A stretch of DNA of 64,000 bases from Pseudomonas cannabina (GTDB lineage Bacteria > Pseudomonadota > Gammaproteobacteria > Pseudomonadales > Pseudomonadaceae). Positions within the stretch are counted from its first letter, which is position 1; each line of letters begins with the position of its first letter. The notes beneath the pieces were generated by a model that was not told the origin of the DNA, ran no database searches, and saw nothing but the letters and a program-made list of their open reading frames with translations. This document shows positions 31,435-62,414 of this stretch, piece by piece. The translations under genes and the position numbers were made by a program. The DNA lies in assembly GCF_900100365.1 (NCBI RefSeq), contig NZ_FNKU01000001.1, positions 4,229,501 to 4,293,500 on the forward strand, given 5' to 3'.

Positions 31435-31534
31435 GGAAGGTCTGAAAAAGCCTTTTCTTCAAAAGTCGAAGCCAGTAAATACAGGCGCTCCAGCCCGGTT
31501 CCTCTCCAAAAAAATGGGCTTTTTCAGAGGATAC
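31435..31534. mobile_element. 100-bp MITE, copy 1
   Basis: The ends carry inverted TCTGAAAAAGCC blocks (left GGAAGGTCTGAAAAAGCC; right end complementary from GGCTTTTTCAGA). It is flanked by CTAA at 31431-31434 and 31535-31538. A second copy at 55695 is flanked by CTAG. The left terminus GGAAGGTCTGAA equals that of the IS5-type element at 56311, which probably mobilises it. Confidence 0.85.
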
Positions 31535-31538
31535 CTAA

Positions 31539-32716
31539 GAGGGTGTAGACAAAATCATGTAGTGAGTCGGCGCGCGAGTATTCGAGCCTCAGCCAACCAA
31601 ACCCATGCCTCGCTTACCGCAAAAAGGCGATCATGATGCATGATCAGTCGCCGAGCTCTCTCATTCCAGGCATGAGTTCGCTCCACTACCCATCGCTTGG
31701 GCATGACCACAAATCCAGTCTGAACAGGCTCCACGGAAAATAGATCGCCTTGTTCAGAGTGCCATTGCCCTGTTCTTCTGTTATTCGGGCCACGGATCAC
31801 TTGAACATCGATAGCGTGCAGTTGATGGGTGCGCTGTGCCCATTTTCCTGCGTACGCACTATCAACAAAAAGCGTGCTCAGTGACGGATATTTTTCCTTC
31901 GAGTACGCCACCGCATCATCCGCCGCGTCACGATCCTGCACGCTTGCAGCACTGATACTGACAGCCAGCAGCAGGCCCAATGTATCGACAATCAGACTTC
32001 GTTTACGCCCCTTCACTTTTTTGCCTGCGTCGTAGCCGCTGTCACCGCCTTGAGGAGAACTGCGGGTCGACTGTGAATCCAGGATCGCTGCTGACGGGCT
32101 GTCAGCGCGTTCTTCCCGCTCACGCCATTGAGCTCGCAAGCGATCATGCATTTGCTCGAACTTGCCTTGAGCGCTCCACCGGCGGAACGTTTTGTAGACA
32201 TTGTCCCAATGAGGAAAATCGCGGGGTAGCATTCGCCATGAGCACCCCGTGCGTACGACATAGCAACAGGCTTCCAGCAACGTGCGCCGAGAGTGAAGCG
32301 GTGGCACTCCTCGTCCGCCCTGGCTTTCAAACAGGTCGGCGACCAGTGCCCACTCGGTATCTGTCAAGCAACTCGGATATAGCTGCTCCGGCAGTTGGCG
32401 GCGGTGGGTTTCATTGTAGCCATAGGCTTTATTAGGTTCAGGTGACTGAAAACTTCCCTTGGCCCGCTGCTTTACACGCGTAATCCCTGCCATTTTCAAC
32501 GCTTTTGCAAAGGTGTCGGGATGCGCAGTGATACCGGTTTCGGCGAAGAATACGAGCGCCAATTCGGCCTGGCTGGAATAGGGCTGTGCATGAGCGAGTT
32601 TCACCAGCACGGGATAGTGCTCGGCGGCAATCGAGCGAGGACGTCCGGTTTTAGGCATGGCTTGAGGGCTATTCAGACAAGGGAGTGAAAGTTTAATTTA
32701 TTTTGTCTACACCCTC
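31539..32716 (-). mobile_element. IS5-family (IS427-like) element, 1178 bp, copy 1
   Basis: Terminal inverted repeats GAGGGTGTAGACAAAAT at both ends, one transposase gene, flanked by TAA on each side. It appears identical to the copy at 57508-58685, in opposite orientation. It sits exactly between the 100-bp and 99-bp MITEs. Confidence 0.92.
31555..32658 (-). CDS. IS5-family transposase, copy 1
   Basis: A 367-residue DDE transposase. The N-terminal part (MPKTGRPRSIAAEHYPVLV) is helix-turn-helix-like and DNA-binding. The catalytic core has the first Asp in AILDSQSTRSSPQGG, the second in TLFVDSAYAGKW and the Glu in VVERTHAWNERARR. Intact and identical in sequence to the copy at 57566-58669, which suggests recent movement. 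Single-frame, so no frameshift is needed. Confidence 0.93.
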   Translation of the reverse strand: MPKTGRPRSIAAEHYPVLVKLAHAQPYSSQAELALVFFAETGITAHPDTFAKALKMAGITRVKQRAKGSFQSPEPNKAYGYNETHRRQLPEQLYPSCLTDTEWALVADLFESQGGRGVPPLHSRRTLLEACCYVVRTGCSWRMLPRDFPHWDNVYKTFRRWSAQGKFEQMHDRLRAQWREREERADSPSAAILDSQSTRSSPQGGDSGYDAGKKVKGRKRSLIVDTLGLLLAVSISAASVQDRDAADDAVAYSKEKYPSLSTLFVDSAYAGKWAQRTHQLHAIDVQVIRGPNNRRTGQWHSEQGDLFSVEPVQTGFVVMPKRWVVERTHAWNERARRLIMHHDRLFAVSEAWVWLAEARILARRLTT

Positions 32717-32719
32717 TAA

Positions 32720-32818
32720 GGAGACGCTGATTTATTCTAAAACCCAGCTGTTGCCCCCAGATAAATCAAGGCCTCCAGAGCGTTGCAGGGACGAAAAATC
32801 GAATAAATCAGCGCCTCC
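32720..32818. mobile_element. 99-bp MITE, copy 1
   Basis: Imperfect palindrome with ends GGAGACGCTGATTTATTC and GAATAAATCAGCGCCTCC. Flanked by CTAA at 32716-32719 and 32819-32822. Other copies are at 55015, 55995 and 59402. It has no coding capacity. Confidence 0.88.
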
Positions 32819-55014: not shown

Positions 55015-55113
55015 GGAGGCGCTGATTTATTCGATTTTTCGTCCCTGCAACGCTCTGGAGGCCTTGATTTATCTGGGGGCAACAGCTGGGTTTTAGAATA
55101 AATCAGCGTCTCC
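55015..55113. mobile_element. 99-bp MITE, copy 2
   Basis: The same element as at 32720, in the opposite orientation, flanked by TTAA at 55011-55014 and 55114-55117. It is inserted directly upstream of the lipoprotein gene's ribosome-binding site. Confidence 0.9.
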
Positions 55114-55281: not shown

Positions 55282-55554
55282 CTAAAAGCCGATACCGACG
55301 CCGGCGCTGCTGCCTTTGCTGTCGGTGTTTTGCTGGCTGGTGTTGTTGGCGGCCAGCAGGTTGATGTCGCCGTCGGCCATCAGGCTGGCATCTCGCCCGG
55401 CCTTGATCTGGCTGCCTTGTACGGTGATGTCGCTGTCTGCACCGGCGCCGGTCGCGCGCAGGCGCACGTCGTTACCGGCGGTGATGGTCGACCCGGCGGC
55501 GCTGTCGCTGGTCTGGGTGGTTTTGCTTTCGTTTTTCTTGGTGCCCAGCGACAA
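55282..55554 (-). pseudogene. Filamentous haemagglutinin / CdiA-type fragment
   Basis: About 85 residues with typical two-partner-secretion adhesin repeats: SAAGSTITAGNDVRLRATGA, GSQIKAGRDASLMADGDINL and NSSQQ-like turns ending SSAGVGIGF. Such blocks occur near the C-terminal half of FhaB/CdiA proteins thousands of residues long. Here both sides break off: a TAG follows GIGF and unrelated AT-rich sequence precedes the fragment. It indicates a former haemagglutinin or contact-dependent-inhibition locus. Confidence 0.8.
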
Positions 55555-55694
55555 GGGAACTATTGGTTTTTCTGATAACTGCGTTATTCGTAATGATAAT
55601 TTTTTAAGTAGAGTATTTTTTCTGAGTAATCCTCATGTATCTTTTTGTACAAATGTCATCCAGTAGTCATACGCCTCCCGGAGCCGTTTGCTAG

Positions 55695-55794
55695 GGAAGG
55701 TCTGAAAAAGCCTTTTCTTCAAAAGTCGAAGCCAGTAAATACAGGCGCTCCAGCCCGGTTCCTCTCCAAAAAAATGGGCTTTTTCAGAGGATAC
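55695..55794. mobile_element. 100-bp MITE, copy 2
   Basis: Matches copy 1 at 31435 over its length by eye. Flanked by CTAG at 55691-55694 and 55795-55798. Inserted in the split ORF. Confidence 0.92.
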
Positions 55795-55994
55795 CTAGTT
55801 TTTGTTCCGTCAGCGATACCGCATATAAAAGCATTAACGACTCTTATCGGGTTTATCGGCATGACGTTCTGCCCGAGTATTACGGGTTGACCGTAATCTG
55901 CATTCTTTTTACTTCCTTTGAGTTGTGCCCAATGTAATTTTGTATTGTTCTTCACAGAAACTTCGCCATAATACATCCCTGCATGAACTGCTAG

Positions 55995-56093
55995 GGAGGC
56001 GCTGATTTATTCGATTTTTCGTCCCTGCAACGCTCTGGAGGCCTTGATTTATCTGGGGGCAACAGCTGGGTTTTAGAATAAATCAGCGTCTCC
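55995..56093. mobile_element. 99-bp MITE, copy 3
   Basis: Same orientation as copy 2 at 55015. Flanked by CTAG at 55991-55994 and 56094-56097. Inserted in the split ORF, 200 bp from the 100-bp MITE. Confidence 0.92.
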
Positions 56094-56310
56094 CTAGCGA
56101 TAATTCTTCATCAGTTAAGCTAGTTTTTTCTGGTGGTTTTTTACTGATATTAGGCTCTGCTTGTTTTTCACCTTTTCCGTGGTGTGAGCGATTTTTCATA
56201 ATTCTATGGGCAAGCCATTCGCCAAGAGTATCTAAAGAGCTTGGAGTAAAGTCCGCGCTCCAATCCTCAAATCCAGGCGTCTTCCATATTTCATGGATTA
56301 AGTCGTCTAG

Positions 56311-57504
56311 GGAAGGTCTGAAGTAGCCGGATGTTTTCCGGCTACCGAGTCCTCAGCACTTTTCAAAAAACGATGCATGTCGAAATTTGCTCAATTATCT
56401 TCGCTTTTTAGCTCTTTCGGCCGCTGCAAAGCCTTTTGCGGTAACCATTTCCTGCATTACACGCGCACCTCTCCTGCGCTCGCCAACAAATGTCGGCGGG
56501 CCATCCACAGGTTTGACAGGGCGAACAACGTCACCATCTGCGCGGTGTTCTTGGCCAAGCCCCGAAAGCGCACTTTTTCATAGCCAAACTGGCGTTTGAT
56601 GACCCGAAACGGATGCTCGACCTTGGCGCGAACCTGGGCCTTGGCCTTCTCGATTTTGCGGATCGCCTTGTACAAAATACTGCGTTTTCCGTGCTTTTTG
56701 TAAGTGCTGCGGCGGGCGGCAATCTGCCAAATGACCTTGCGCCCAGCGTGTTCTTCGCGCTTCTCGACCCCGGTGTAACCTGCGTCGGCGCAGACTACGT
56801 TTTCCTCGCCGTGCAGCAGTTTGGCAACCTGCGTGACGTCTGCCACATTGGCCGCTGTTACTACCACGCTGTGCACCAGGCCTGACTCGTCGTCGGCGCC
56901 GATGTGAGCCTTGGCGCCGAAATAGTACTGGTTACCTTTCTTGGTTTGATGCATCTCAGGATCGCGTTTGCCATCCTTGTTCTTGGTCGAACTGGGCGCG
57001 TGAATCAGCGTGGCATCGACGATGGTGCCTTGACGCAACGACAAGCCACGGTCGCCCAGATAACCATTAATTACGCCGAGAATCCCGGTCGCCAACTCGT
57101 GCTTTTCCAGCAGACGACGGAAGTTGAGAATGGTGGTTTCGTCTGGAATTCGCTCCAGGCTCAGGCCTGAAAACTGACGCAGGATGGTCGTCTCATACAG
57201 CGCTTCTTCCATCGCCGGATCGCTGTAGCCGAACCAGTTCTGCATCAGATGAACACGCAGCATCGCCATCAGTGGGTAGGCGGGCCGGCCACCTTCTCCT
57301 TTTGGATAATAGGGCTCAATCAGGGCAATCAAACCTTTCCAGGGCACCACCTGATCCATCTCGATCAGGAACAATTCCTTACGGGTCTGCTTGCGCTTGC
57401 CGGCATACTCGGCGTCGGCGAAGGTCATCTGTTTCATCATCGAAAAGCTCGGCGACTGGTGTCCGGAGATTTTGCCAAATTAGGAAGTCTTTTTCAGAGT
57501 TTCC
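56311..57504 (-). mobile_element. IS5-type insertion sequence, 1194 bp
   Basis: Ends GGAAGGTCTGAA and TTCAGAGTTTCC are imperfect inverted repeats. The left CTAG duplication is 56307-56310; the right CTAG at 57505 has itself been split by the 1178-bp element (CTA before it, TAG after it). The shared GGAAGGTCTGAA terminus links it to the 100-bp MITE. Confidence 0.9.
56457..57440 (-). CDS. IS5-group transposase
   Basis: 327 residues of the IS5 subgroup: N-terminal MTFADAEYAGKRKQTRKELF, catalytic Asp in GTIVDATLIHAPSSTKN, second Asp in VVCADAGYTGVEKREEH and Glu in VRAKVEHPFRVIKRQFGYEK. The frame is intact, so the element may be active. The true start may be the second methionine or a later one. 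Confidence 0.92.
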   Translation of the reverse strand: MMKQMTFADAEYAGKRKQTRKELFLIEMDQVVPWKGLIALIEPYYPKGEGGRPAYPLMAMLRVHLMQNWFGYSDPAMEEALYETTILRQFSGLSLERIPDETTILNFRRLLEKHELATGILGVINGYLGDRGLSLRQGTIVDATLIHAPSSTKNKDGKRDPEMHQTKKGNQYYFGAKAHIGADDESGLVHSVVVTAANVADVTQVAKLLHGEENVVCADAGYTGVEKREEHAGRKVIWQIAARRSTYKKHGKRSILYKAIRKIEKAKAQVRAKVEHPFRVIKRQFGYEKVRFRGLAKNTAQMVTLFALSNLWMARRHLLASAGEVRV

Positions 57505-57507
57505 CTA

Positions 57508-58685
57508 GAGGGTGTAGACAAAATAAATTAAACTTTCACTCCCTTGTCTGAATAGCCCTCAAGCCATGCCTAAAACCGGACGTCCTCGCTCGATTGCCGC
57601 CGAGCACTATCCCGTGCTGGTGAAACTCGCTCATGCACAGCCCTATTCCAGCCAGGCCGAATTGGCGCTCGTATTCTTCGCCGAAACCGGTATCACTGCG
57701 CATCCCGACACCTTTGCAAAAGCGTTGAAAATGGCAGGGATTACGCGTGTAAAGCAGCGGGCCAAGGGAAGTTTTCAGTCACCTGAACCTAATAAAGCCT
57801 ATGGCTACAATGAAACCCACCGCCGCCAACTGCCGGAGCAGCTATATCCGAGTTGCTTGACAGATACCGAGTGGGCACTGGTCGCCGACCTGTTTGAAAG
57901 CCAGGGCGGACGAGGAGTGCCACCGCTTCACTCTCGGCGCACGTTGCTGGAAGCCTGTTGCTATGTCGTACGCACGGGGTGCTCATGGCGAATGCTACCC
58001 CGCGATTTTCCTCATTGGGACAATGTCTACAAAACGTTCCGCCGGTGGAGCGCTCAAGGCAAGTTCGAGCAAATGCATGATCGCTTGCGAGCTCAATGGC
58101 GTGAGCGGGAAGAACGCGCTGACAGCCCGTCAGCAGCGATCCTGGATTCACAGTCGACCCGCAGTTCTCCTCAAGGCGGTGACAGCGGCTACGACGCAGG
58201 CAAAAAAGTGAAGGGGCGTAAACGAAGTCTGATTGTCGATACATTGGGCCTGCTGCTGGCTGTCAGTATCAGTGCTGCAAGCGTGCAGGATCGTGACGCG
58301 GCGGATGATGCGGTGGCGTACTCGAAGGAAAAATATCCGTCACTGAGCACGCTTTTTGTTGATAGTGCGTACGCAGGAAAATGGGCACAGCGCACCCATC
58401 AACTGCACGCTATCGATGTTCAAGTGATCCGTGGCCCGAATAACAGAAGAACAGGGCAATGGCACTCTGAACAAGGCGATCTATTTTCCGTGGAGCCTGT
58501 TCAGACTGGATTTGTGGTCATGCCCAAGCGATGGGTAGTGGAGCGAACTCATGCCTGGAATGAGAGAGCTCGGCGACTGATCATGCATCATGATCGCCTT
58601 TTTGCGGTAAGCGAGGCATGGGTTTGGTTGGCCGAGGCTCGAATACTCGCGCGCCGACTCACTACATGATTTTGTCTACACCCTC
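57508..58685 (+). mobile_element. IS5-family (IS427-like) element, 1178 bp, copy 2
   Basis: Same length, ends and coding sequence as copy 1, in inverse orientation. Flanked by CTA on the left and TAG on the right, i.e. inserted at the TA of the right-hand CTAG duplication of the neighbouring IS5-type element. This shows the order of insertion. Confidence 0.93.
57566..58669 (+). CDS. IS5-family transposase, copy 2
   Basis: 367 residues, identical to the protein at 31555-32658, with intact DDE residues (DSQST, VDSAYAG, VVERTHAW). Being intact and identical to copy 1 implies recent transposition. Confidence 0.93.
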   Translation: MPKTGRPRSIAAEHYPVLVKLAHAQPYSSQAELALVFFAETGITAHPDTFAKALKMAGITRVKQRAKGSFQSPEPNKAYGYNETHRRQLPEQLYPSCLTDTEWALVADLFESQGGRGVPPLHSRRTLLEACCYVVRTGCSWRMLPRDFPHWDNVYKTFRRWSAQGKFEQMHDRLRAQWREREERADSPSAAILDSQSTRSSPQGGDSGYDAGKKVKGRKRSLIVDTLGLLLAVSISAASVQDRDAADDAVAYSKEKYPSLSTLFVDSAYAGKWAQRTHQLHAIDVQVIRGPNNRRTGQWHSEQGDLFSVEPVQTGFVVMPKRWVVERTHAWNERARRLIMHHDRLFAVSEAWVWLAEARILARRLTT

Positions 58686-58848
58686 TAGGAAACCAGGGGC
58701 GATTCAGTTAGCTGCCACCACTCATAAAAATGGCCCCTACGCTATTGTCGAGCGAAGGGGCCAATTTGAAATCGCACCTGTTATGGATATTTCAACAGCT
58801 TACCGACCTTGGAAAGGCACTGGCACCGTCAGACTGTCGGCACGTTAA
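58686..58848 (+). pseudogene. C-terminal fragment of an unidentified protein
   Basis: An open frame emerging from the IS right end and running about 50 codons (KNGPYAIVERRGQFEIAPVM, then TAYRPWKGTGTVRLSAR) to TAA. It looks coding but has no start of its own: the only upstream methionine lies inside the IS. It overlaps the convergent membrane protein gene by four bases. Family not recognised. Confidence 0.5.
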
Positions 58849-59384
58849 ACCTCACGTGAGGGGTTAACGGCCTGCTCGGCCTGCAGGATAGTTTGATGCA
58901 TGCGATTGATGTGCTCGACAGCGGTGTGACCTTGGGCCAGATGATAGACAAAAATCTCGCTCGTCTTGGTGAACCTATGGCCTATGCGCACGGTGTACGA
59001 ACGGAACATCCAGCTGAAAAACCCCGTGTAGTACATGGCATCTTCAATGTCACGCCATTTGACACCGCGAACCCCTTTGCTCCAAGGCAAAATTCCTCGA
59101 AAAATCCATACGCCAATATCATCTGTATAGAGGCGAACACTTTTGAGGAAAAGTATCCTGTAAATACCTATAGCCAGCGAGACCACCAGTACGAACACGC
59201 TGAACGTAATGCCAATCTTAAAGGCCGAATCAGATTGAGCATTATGTTTCGTCCACGAGCCGATGCCTAACGACACAGCAATCAAAAAAATTGACGTCAT
59301 GATCACGTTGGCATATGCAAGCCAAGACAATCTGTAGACAGCGTGCGCCGGGGTGTCGCGGGTAGGGTGTTCATATCCGTTCAC
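58845..59384 (-). CDS. Membrane protein with PH-like C-terminal domain
   Basis: 179 residues from GTG 59384, which follows AAAGGAG at eight bases. Two hydrophobic segments at about 22-42 and 57-80 are followed by a soluble region (VRLYTDDIGVWIFRGILPW; VKWRDIEDAMYYTGF) resembling bacterial PH domains. Function unknown. The 99-bp MITE copy 4 lies directly before its Shine-Dalgarno, so its original upstream region is displaced. Confidence 0.7.
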   Translation of the reverse strand: MNGYEHPTRDTPAHAVYRLSWLAYANVIMTSIFLIAVSLGIGSWTKHNAQSDSAFKIGITFSVFVLVVSLAIGIYRILFLKSVRLYTDDIGVWIFRGILPWSKGVRGVKWRDIEDAMYYTGFFSWMFRSYTVRIGHRFTKTSEIFVYHLAQGHTAVEHINRMHQTILQAEQAVNPSREV

Positions 59385-59401: not shown

Positions 59402-59500
59402 GGAGACGCTGATTTATTCTAAAACCCAGCTGTTGCCCCCAGATAAATCAAGGCCTCCAGAGCGTTGCAGGGACGAAAAATCGAATAAATCAGCGCCTCC
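59402..59500. mobile_element. 99-bp MITE, copy 4
   Basis: Same orientation as copy 1. Flanked by TTAA at 59398-59401 and 59501-59504, the left duplication merging with the AAAGGAG ribosome-binding site of the minus-strand gene. Confidence 0.92.

Positions 59501-60585: not shown

Positions 60586-62414
<1,829 letters not shown>

Follow-up and report, generated by a model that had tools for sequence, protein, structure and literature searches.

A single small minus-strand gene in the 64,000-bp window of the Pseudomonas cannabina genome analysed here is interrupted by two MITEs and ends abruptly at a pair of IS elements, which raises the questions of what this gene encoded, how it was taken apart and whether such a cluster of insertions means that its loss was favoured. 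We consider it very probable that the locus is what remains of a predicted CdiI-type immunity gene that was split into three pieces by the two MITEs and that, next to an ISPsy2-ISPsy19 pair, lacks its first 36 codons, likely owing to a deletion at ISPsy19.

All three pieces are read from the minus strand: piece 1 (56098 to 56310) has 71 codons corresponding to residues 37-107 of the intact relative P0025 described below, piece 2 (55800 to 55991) has 64 codons corresponding to residues 109-172 and piece 3 (55636 to 55692) has 19 codons corresponding to residues 174-192, followed by the stop codon at 55633-55635. The pieces contain no internal stop or frameshift and are AT-rich, with a GC content of 41-45% as compared to 58.6% for the window. 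Pieces 1 and 2 are separated by a 99-nt MITE, here called MITE2 (55995 to 56093, plus strand), which lies between CTAG at 55991-55994 and CTAG at 56094-56097, and pieces 2 and 3 by the 100-nt MITEPsy1 (55695 to 55794, plus strand), between CTAG at 55691-55694 and CTAG at 55795-55798. At the other end of piece 1, directly after the CTAG at 56307-56310, begins ISPsy2 (IS5 family, 1194 nt, 56311 to 57504, minus strand), with an IS5-type transposase (ORF 56457-57440, minus strand) and 99.7% identity to the best annotated copy. It is abutted by ISPsy19 (IS5 family, 1178 nt, 57508 to 58685, plus strand), which has perfect 17-nt ends and a 367-aa IS5-type transposase (ORF 57566-58669); the CTAG at 57505-57508 is common to both elements. 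The limits of the two MITEs and the left IS end at 56311 had been placed correctly in the preliminary description. That account spoke of two unrelated element families, which holds for the separate 99-nt MITE but not for MITEPsy1 and ISPsy2; these have ends in common, and MITEPsy1 can therefore not be called unrelated to the adjoining IS. ISPsy19, like the 99-nt MITE, is a separate element.

MITE2 has about 256 copies genome-wide (its ends gave 256 matches in forward and 257 in reverse orientation, with at most one mismatch) and occurs in 48 of the 72,556 records of a plasmid collection, all of them from Pseudomonas. At either end, its ten outermost bases are those of an IS5-type element at locus L101 (223-1431), which is likely to be the source of its transposase. 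On plasmids, the latter element carries no annotation beyond "IS5 family"; it has a CTAG in common with a MITE2 copy and is 1209 nt long, which we take to be the length of IS52. Two further MITE2 copies, at 55015-55113 and 59402-59500, are oppositely oriented, have TTAA on both sides and enclose the broken gene, and at another locus (L015, 945-1603) four copies are packed into 660 bp, each at a separate YTAR target. In the plasmid records NZ_LT963411.1, NZ_CP026557.1 and NZ_LT985195.1, the MITE2 copies are covered by features with the annotation CesT-family chaperone. Two adjoining minus-strand ORFs elsewhere in the window (60586-62414) presumably resemble an IS21-type pair.

The MITEPsy1 copy here has the length, both 18-nt terminal repeats and the target of the published element, which is given in Bardaji et al. 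2011 (PMC3189936) as 100 nt long, with 18-nt terminal repeats and a CTAG or YTAA target, CTAG being duplicated on both sides in the present case. The number of copies differs, with 64 left ends in the window's genome as compared to six copies reported for strain 1448A in the same text; ISPsy2 has 11 left ends and ISPsy19 has 58 and 56 matches to its two ends. Judged from these elements, the host likely belongs to the P. syringae group. As a short, high-copy and gene-breaking element MITE2 is similar to MITEPsy3 of P. syringae pv. actinidiae (102 bp, 78 copies, attributed to ISPsy25 of the IS630 family), which breaks accessory genes and in one case is part of a gene hit by two MITEs and an IS (PMC6053426). 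The 4-nt YTAR target and the IS5-type ends of MITE2 set it apart from MITEPsy3 as described, although kinship between them is possible.

According to the preliminary description, excision of each MITE together with one CTAG restores the reading frame. When the pieces were translated and searched separately they gave ordered matches in intact proteins of about 190 aa, and each joint was found to correspond to one codon containing target bases. A profile search yielded 338 homologous proteins, and among the 120 of these that were listed, 29 of 31 with a measurable distance showed a spacing of one residue between pieces 1 and 2 (six residues in the other two) and 94 of 97 the same spacing between pieces 2 and 3, which bears out the restored frame. 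The nearest intact relative among the same 120 was P0025 (192 aa, labelled P. syringae), with 73%, 75% and 68% identity to pieces 1, 2 and 3, respectively. Given that the alignment to P0025 is gap-free over residues 37-192 (156 codons), the MITE joints are exact and, judged from the sequence, the three pieces are the remnant of one gene.

Matches in other genomes were obtained at 17 loci (L062-L078), some of which represent the same genome twice. All three pieces were matched in order at the 13 Pseudomonas loci (L062-L074); at the four loci that are more distant (L075-L078) pieces 1 and 2 were matched, and piece 3 only weakly or not at all. Piece 2 alone as query matched 12 named loci and was present in 6 of 298 genomes of the genus, including the genome of the window itself. 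An allele with empty sites was not found in the genomes searched, which comprised one per species and none with an allele close to that of the window. Family searches with the protein and its relatives gave no covering Pfam or NCBIfam family, and a Metallophos_C match to piece 2 (E 0.19) and a VpdC match (16.9 bits versus a cut-off of 1000) were rejected as noise.

The function of the protein can be approached from the context of its relatives. An immunity-type protein had been proposed on the basis of an adjacent haemagglutinin fragment. The fragment (55282 to 55554, minus strand; PF13332, E 8.9e-19) lies downstream of the broken gene and would not in itself be indicative. The proposal is supported by the finding that 7 of 12 named loci have, directly upstream of the gene, the end of a CdiA-type toxin or the final 28-80 residues of that end (L067, where it has a frame break, L070, L071, L072, L073, L074 and L078). 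The proposed neighbourhood of a full-length homologue and cdiA or a toxin gene was thus observed in these seven loci, at some of them with toxin fragments only, and in two (L071 and L072) the protein encoded upstream is an FHA protein with haemagglutinin repeats and a PT-VENN pre-toxin domain. These findings support that the broken gene encoded a predicted CdiI-type immunity protein. At L067 (4104-4671), the toxin end is frameshifted and the adjoining immunity gene is intact. Among the 27 relatives of the toxin end, six bear the name filamentous hemagglutinin and one that of RHS repeat-associated protein; no curated family was found for this toxin end. Its structural model (pLDDT 75.7) gave no strong Foldseek match and resembles mainly nucleases of restriction-enzyme fold, the matches including three solved CdiA-CT toxins (4g6u, 4zqu and 4g6v), and a nuclease fold is predicted for the toxin partner in the relatives, which may be a CdiA-CT toxin of the PD-(D/E)XK type. 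The model of the immunity protein (pLDDT 88.6) is mainly helical, with no clear match among solved structures. In intact relatives the protein would bind and block the nuclease end of the CdiA encoded just upstream.

Orphan cdiA-CT/cdiI modules, some of them interrupted by IS elements, are known (PMC3150448), and the present locus is similar to the modules described there in that an immunity gene belongs after a CdiA toxin end behind VENN and in the interruption by IS elements. It differs from them in that the gene is broken, lacks a Pfam or NCBIfam entry and has no toxin end: the upstream DNA has been replaced by the ISPsy2-ISPsy19 pair and other sequence, with no toxin match in the window, and a search of the genome (E up to 1, run without a positive control) gave no match to the toxin end. 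Because no such match was found, the gene was likely a spare (orphan) immunity gene, the loss of which would have been cheap.

Two other readings of the gene and its missing start have to be weighed. The protein could be an unrelated accessory protein that is often encoded near FHA genes, which would fit with its lack of a curated family and with the 5 of 12 named loci that have no toxin end upstream and where some relatives may do something else. We regard this as unlikely given that at L070, L071 and L072 the gene adjoins the toxin frame or overlaps it (by four bases, when the earliest possible start is taken) and that L073, L074 and L078 have retained fragments of the same toxin end immediately upstream. 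With regard to the start, a reading of 157 codons as the whole gene was rejected since the relatives have about 36 additional residues ahead of piece 1 (two of 11 full-length rows differ at the start). The expected place of these codons is the DNA beyond ISPsy19 (58686 to 58850), where the gene is not resumed and the frame reaches a TGA stop at its sixth codon. Nothing like residues 1-36 was found beside the gene in the window, nor in the window's genome, where two full-length relatives used as queries matched pieces 1 and 2 only (neither search included a positive control).

The flanks of ISPsy19 are informative to a limited extent. Its insertion is reported to duplicate 3 nt (PMC3189936), and equal 3-nt flanks were seen in 12 of 17 distinct copies read and unequal flanks in five. 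The copy beside the broken gene is preceded by CTA and followed by TAG, and the same flanks are found in a copy at L044 that is also next to an ISPsy2 end. Such flanks fit halves derived from two copies, but also the simple insertion of ISPsy19 into a CTAG of which just TA was duplicated, and since the latter would look identical, the missing codons constitute the main evidence for a deletion. If ISPsy2 and ISPsy19 were both plain insertions and the gene start in this lineage were different rather than lost, one would expect the CTAG that is seen on both outer sides of the pair and between its members, and CTA/TAG flanks resulting from a 2-nt duplication would be compatible. Matching CTAGs were nevertheless not accepted as proof, because CTAG-like sites are the usual targets of these elements, and the TGA stop and the absence from the window and genome of residues carried by the relatives make this alternative rather improbable. 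We infer that codons 1-36 were likely removed by a deletion at ISPsy19, most likely through recombination between two ISPsy19 copies. Adjacent ISPsy2 and ISPsy19 are known from 1448A (PMC3189936); the pair here marks the missing start of a gene.

As regards the clustering of insertions, a hotspot and a favoured loss had both been suggested. CTAG is rare in the window (29 observed versus 112 expected from shuffles), and within its 471 bp the gene has four different CTAGs, of which three are occupied, as compared to 29 in 64,000 bp. YTAR sites number nine in the gene and 174 in the window. The genes of the relatives (n = 13, at least one counted twice) have 0 or 1 CTAG and 2 to 12 YTAR sites each, and compared with these the gene is unusual in CTAG only and not in total YTAR. 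Given that nine YTAR sites is not a high number for this family, the argument from target supply depends on the comparison with the window. One short target (C/T-TA-A/G, or its core) serves all of these elements, the gene happened to contain four CTAGs, and target bases are duplicated at each insertion; the first hit would kill the gene and later hits would be neutral and accumulate. With CTAGs this dense and the target duplicated at each insertion the cluster can be explained without selection, and target supply is the likely cause if the window is the right yardstick. In this sense, as target supply relative to the window together with common stacking of elements in the genome, the hotspot is supported. 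Selection for loss of the gene, with insertions that were favoured and not neutral, could be suspected from three separate insertion sites within 471 bp of one gene and from pieces free of stops and frameshifts, the damage seemingly being of recent date and caused by nothing but mobile elements. However, a single insertion is enough to break the gene and selection leaves the later ones unexplained, whereas CTAG density and genome-wide stacking account for the cluster, and we therefore find selected loss improbable.

The stacking was seen in several comparisons. Of 40 scored MITEPsy1 copies 30 were fetched, and in 21 of the 30 the target was directly common with another element, as compared to 3 of 30 fetched MITE2 copies; the copies were picked by similarity to CTAG-flanked queries and are thus a non-random sample. 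On the contig C1, at least 18 of 48 MITEPsy1 and at least 4 of 7 ISPsy2 copies abut ISPsy19 (100 of its 114 ends included), whereas 0.008 would be expected under uniform placement, which is a crude null. Within the bases up to 3,379,161, the part covered for MITE2, ISPsy19 was abutted by MITEPsy1 or ISPsy2 in 10 of 25 cases and by MITE2 in 6 of 85 (Fisher's Exact Test, p = 0.0002). For strain 1448A, PMC3189936 gives ISPsy19 as adjacent to ISPsy2 in nine cases and to MITEPsy1 in three. A second stack in the window (31435-32818) is formed by MITEPsy1, ISPsy19 and MITE2, one directly after the other, and has targets of the CTAA type. Stacked elements may also move as one unit. It is quite possible, if short of probable, that several P. 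syringae IS5-type elements use one target (YTAR) that is rebuilt at each insertion and serves as a landing pad for the next, with ISPsy19 seeking the CTAG at MITEPsy1 and ISPsy2 ends, so that a first hit initiates a growing stack and the decay of a gene becomes self-accelerating.

In its setting this is an accessory gene that has decayed in the ordinary way in a genome rich in elements, although an unusually dense case, and the frame argument is in itself exact. The locus provides a clean and readable example of an accessory immunity gene dying under such conditions, and draws attention to predicted immunity proteins of an uncurated family, for which a nuclease is predicted as the partner. What deserves to be followed is the bias in stacking: if it is true, target-regenerating elements can create their own hotspots, and clustered hits in a gene need not imply that its loss was selected.
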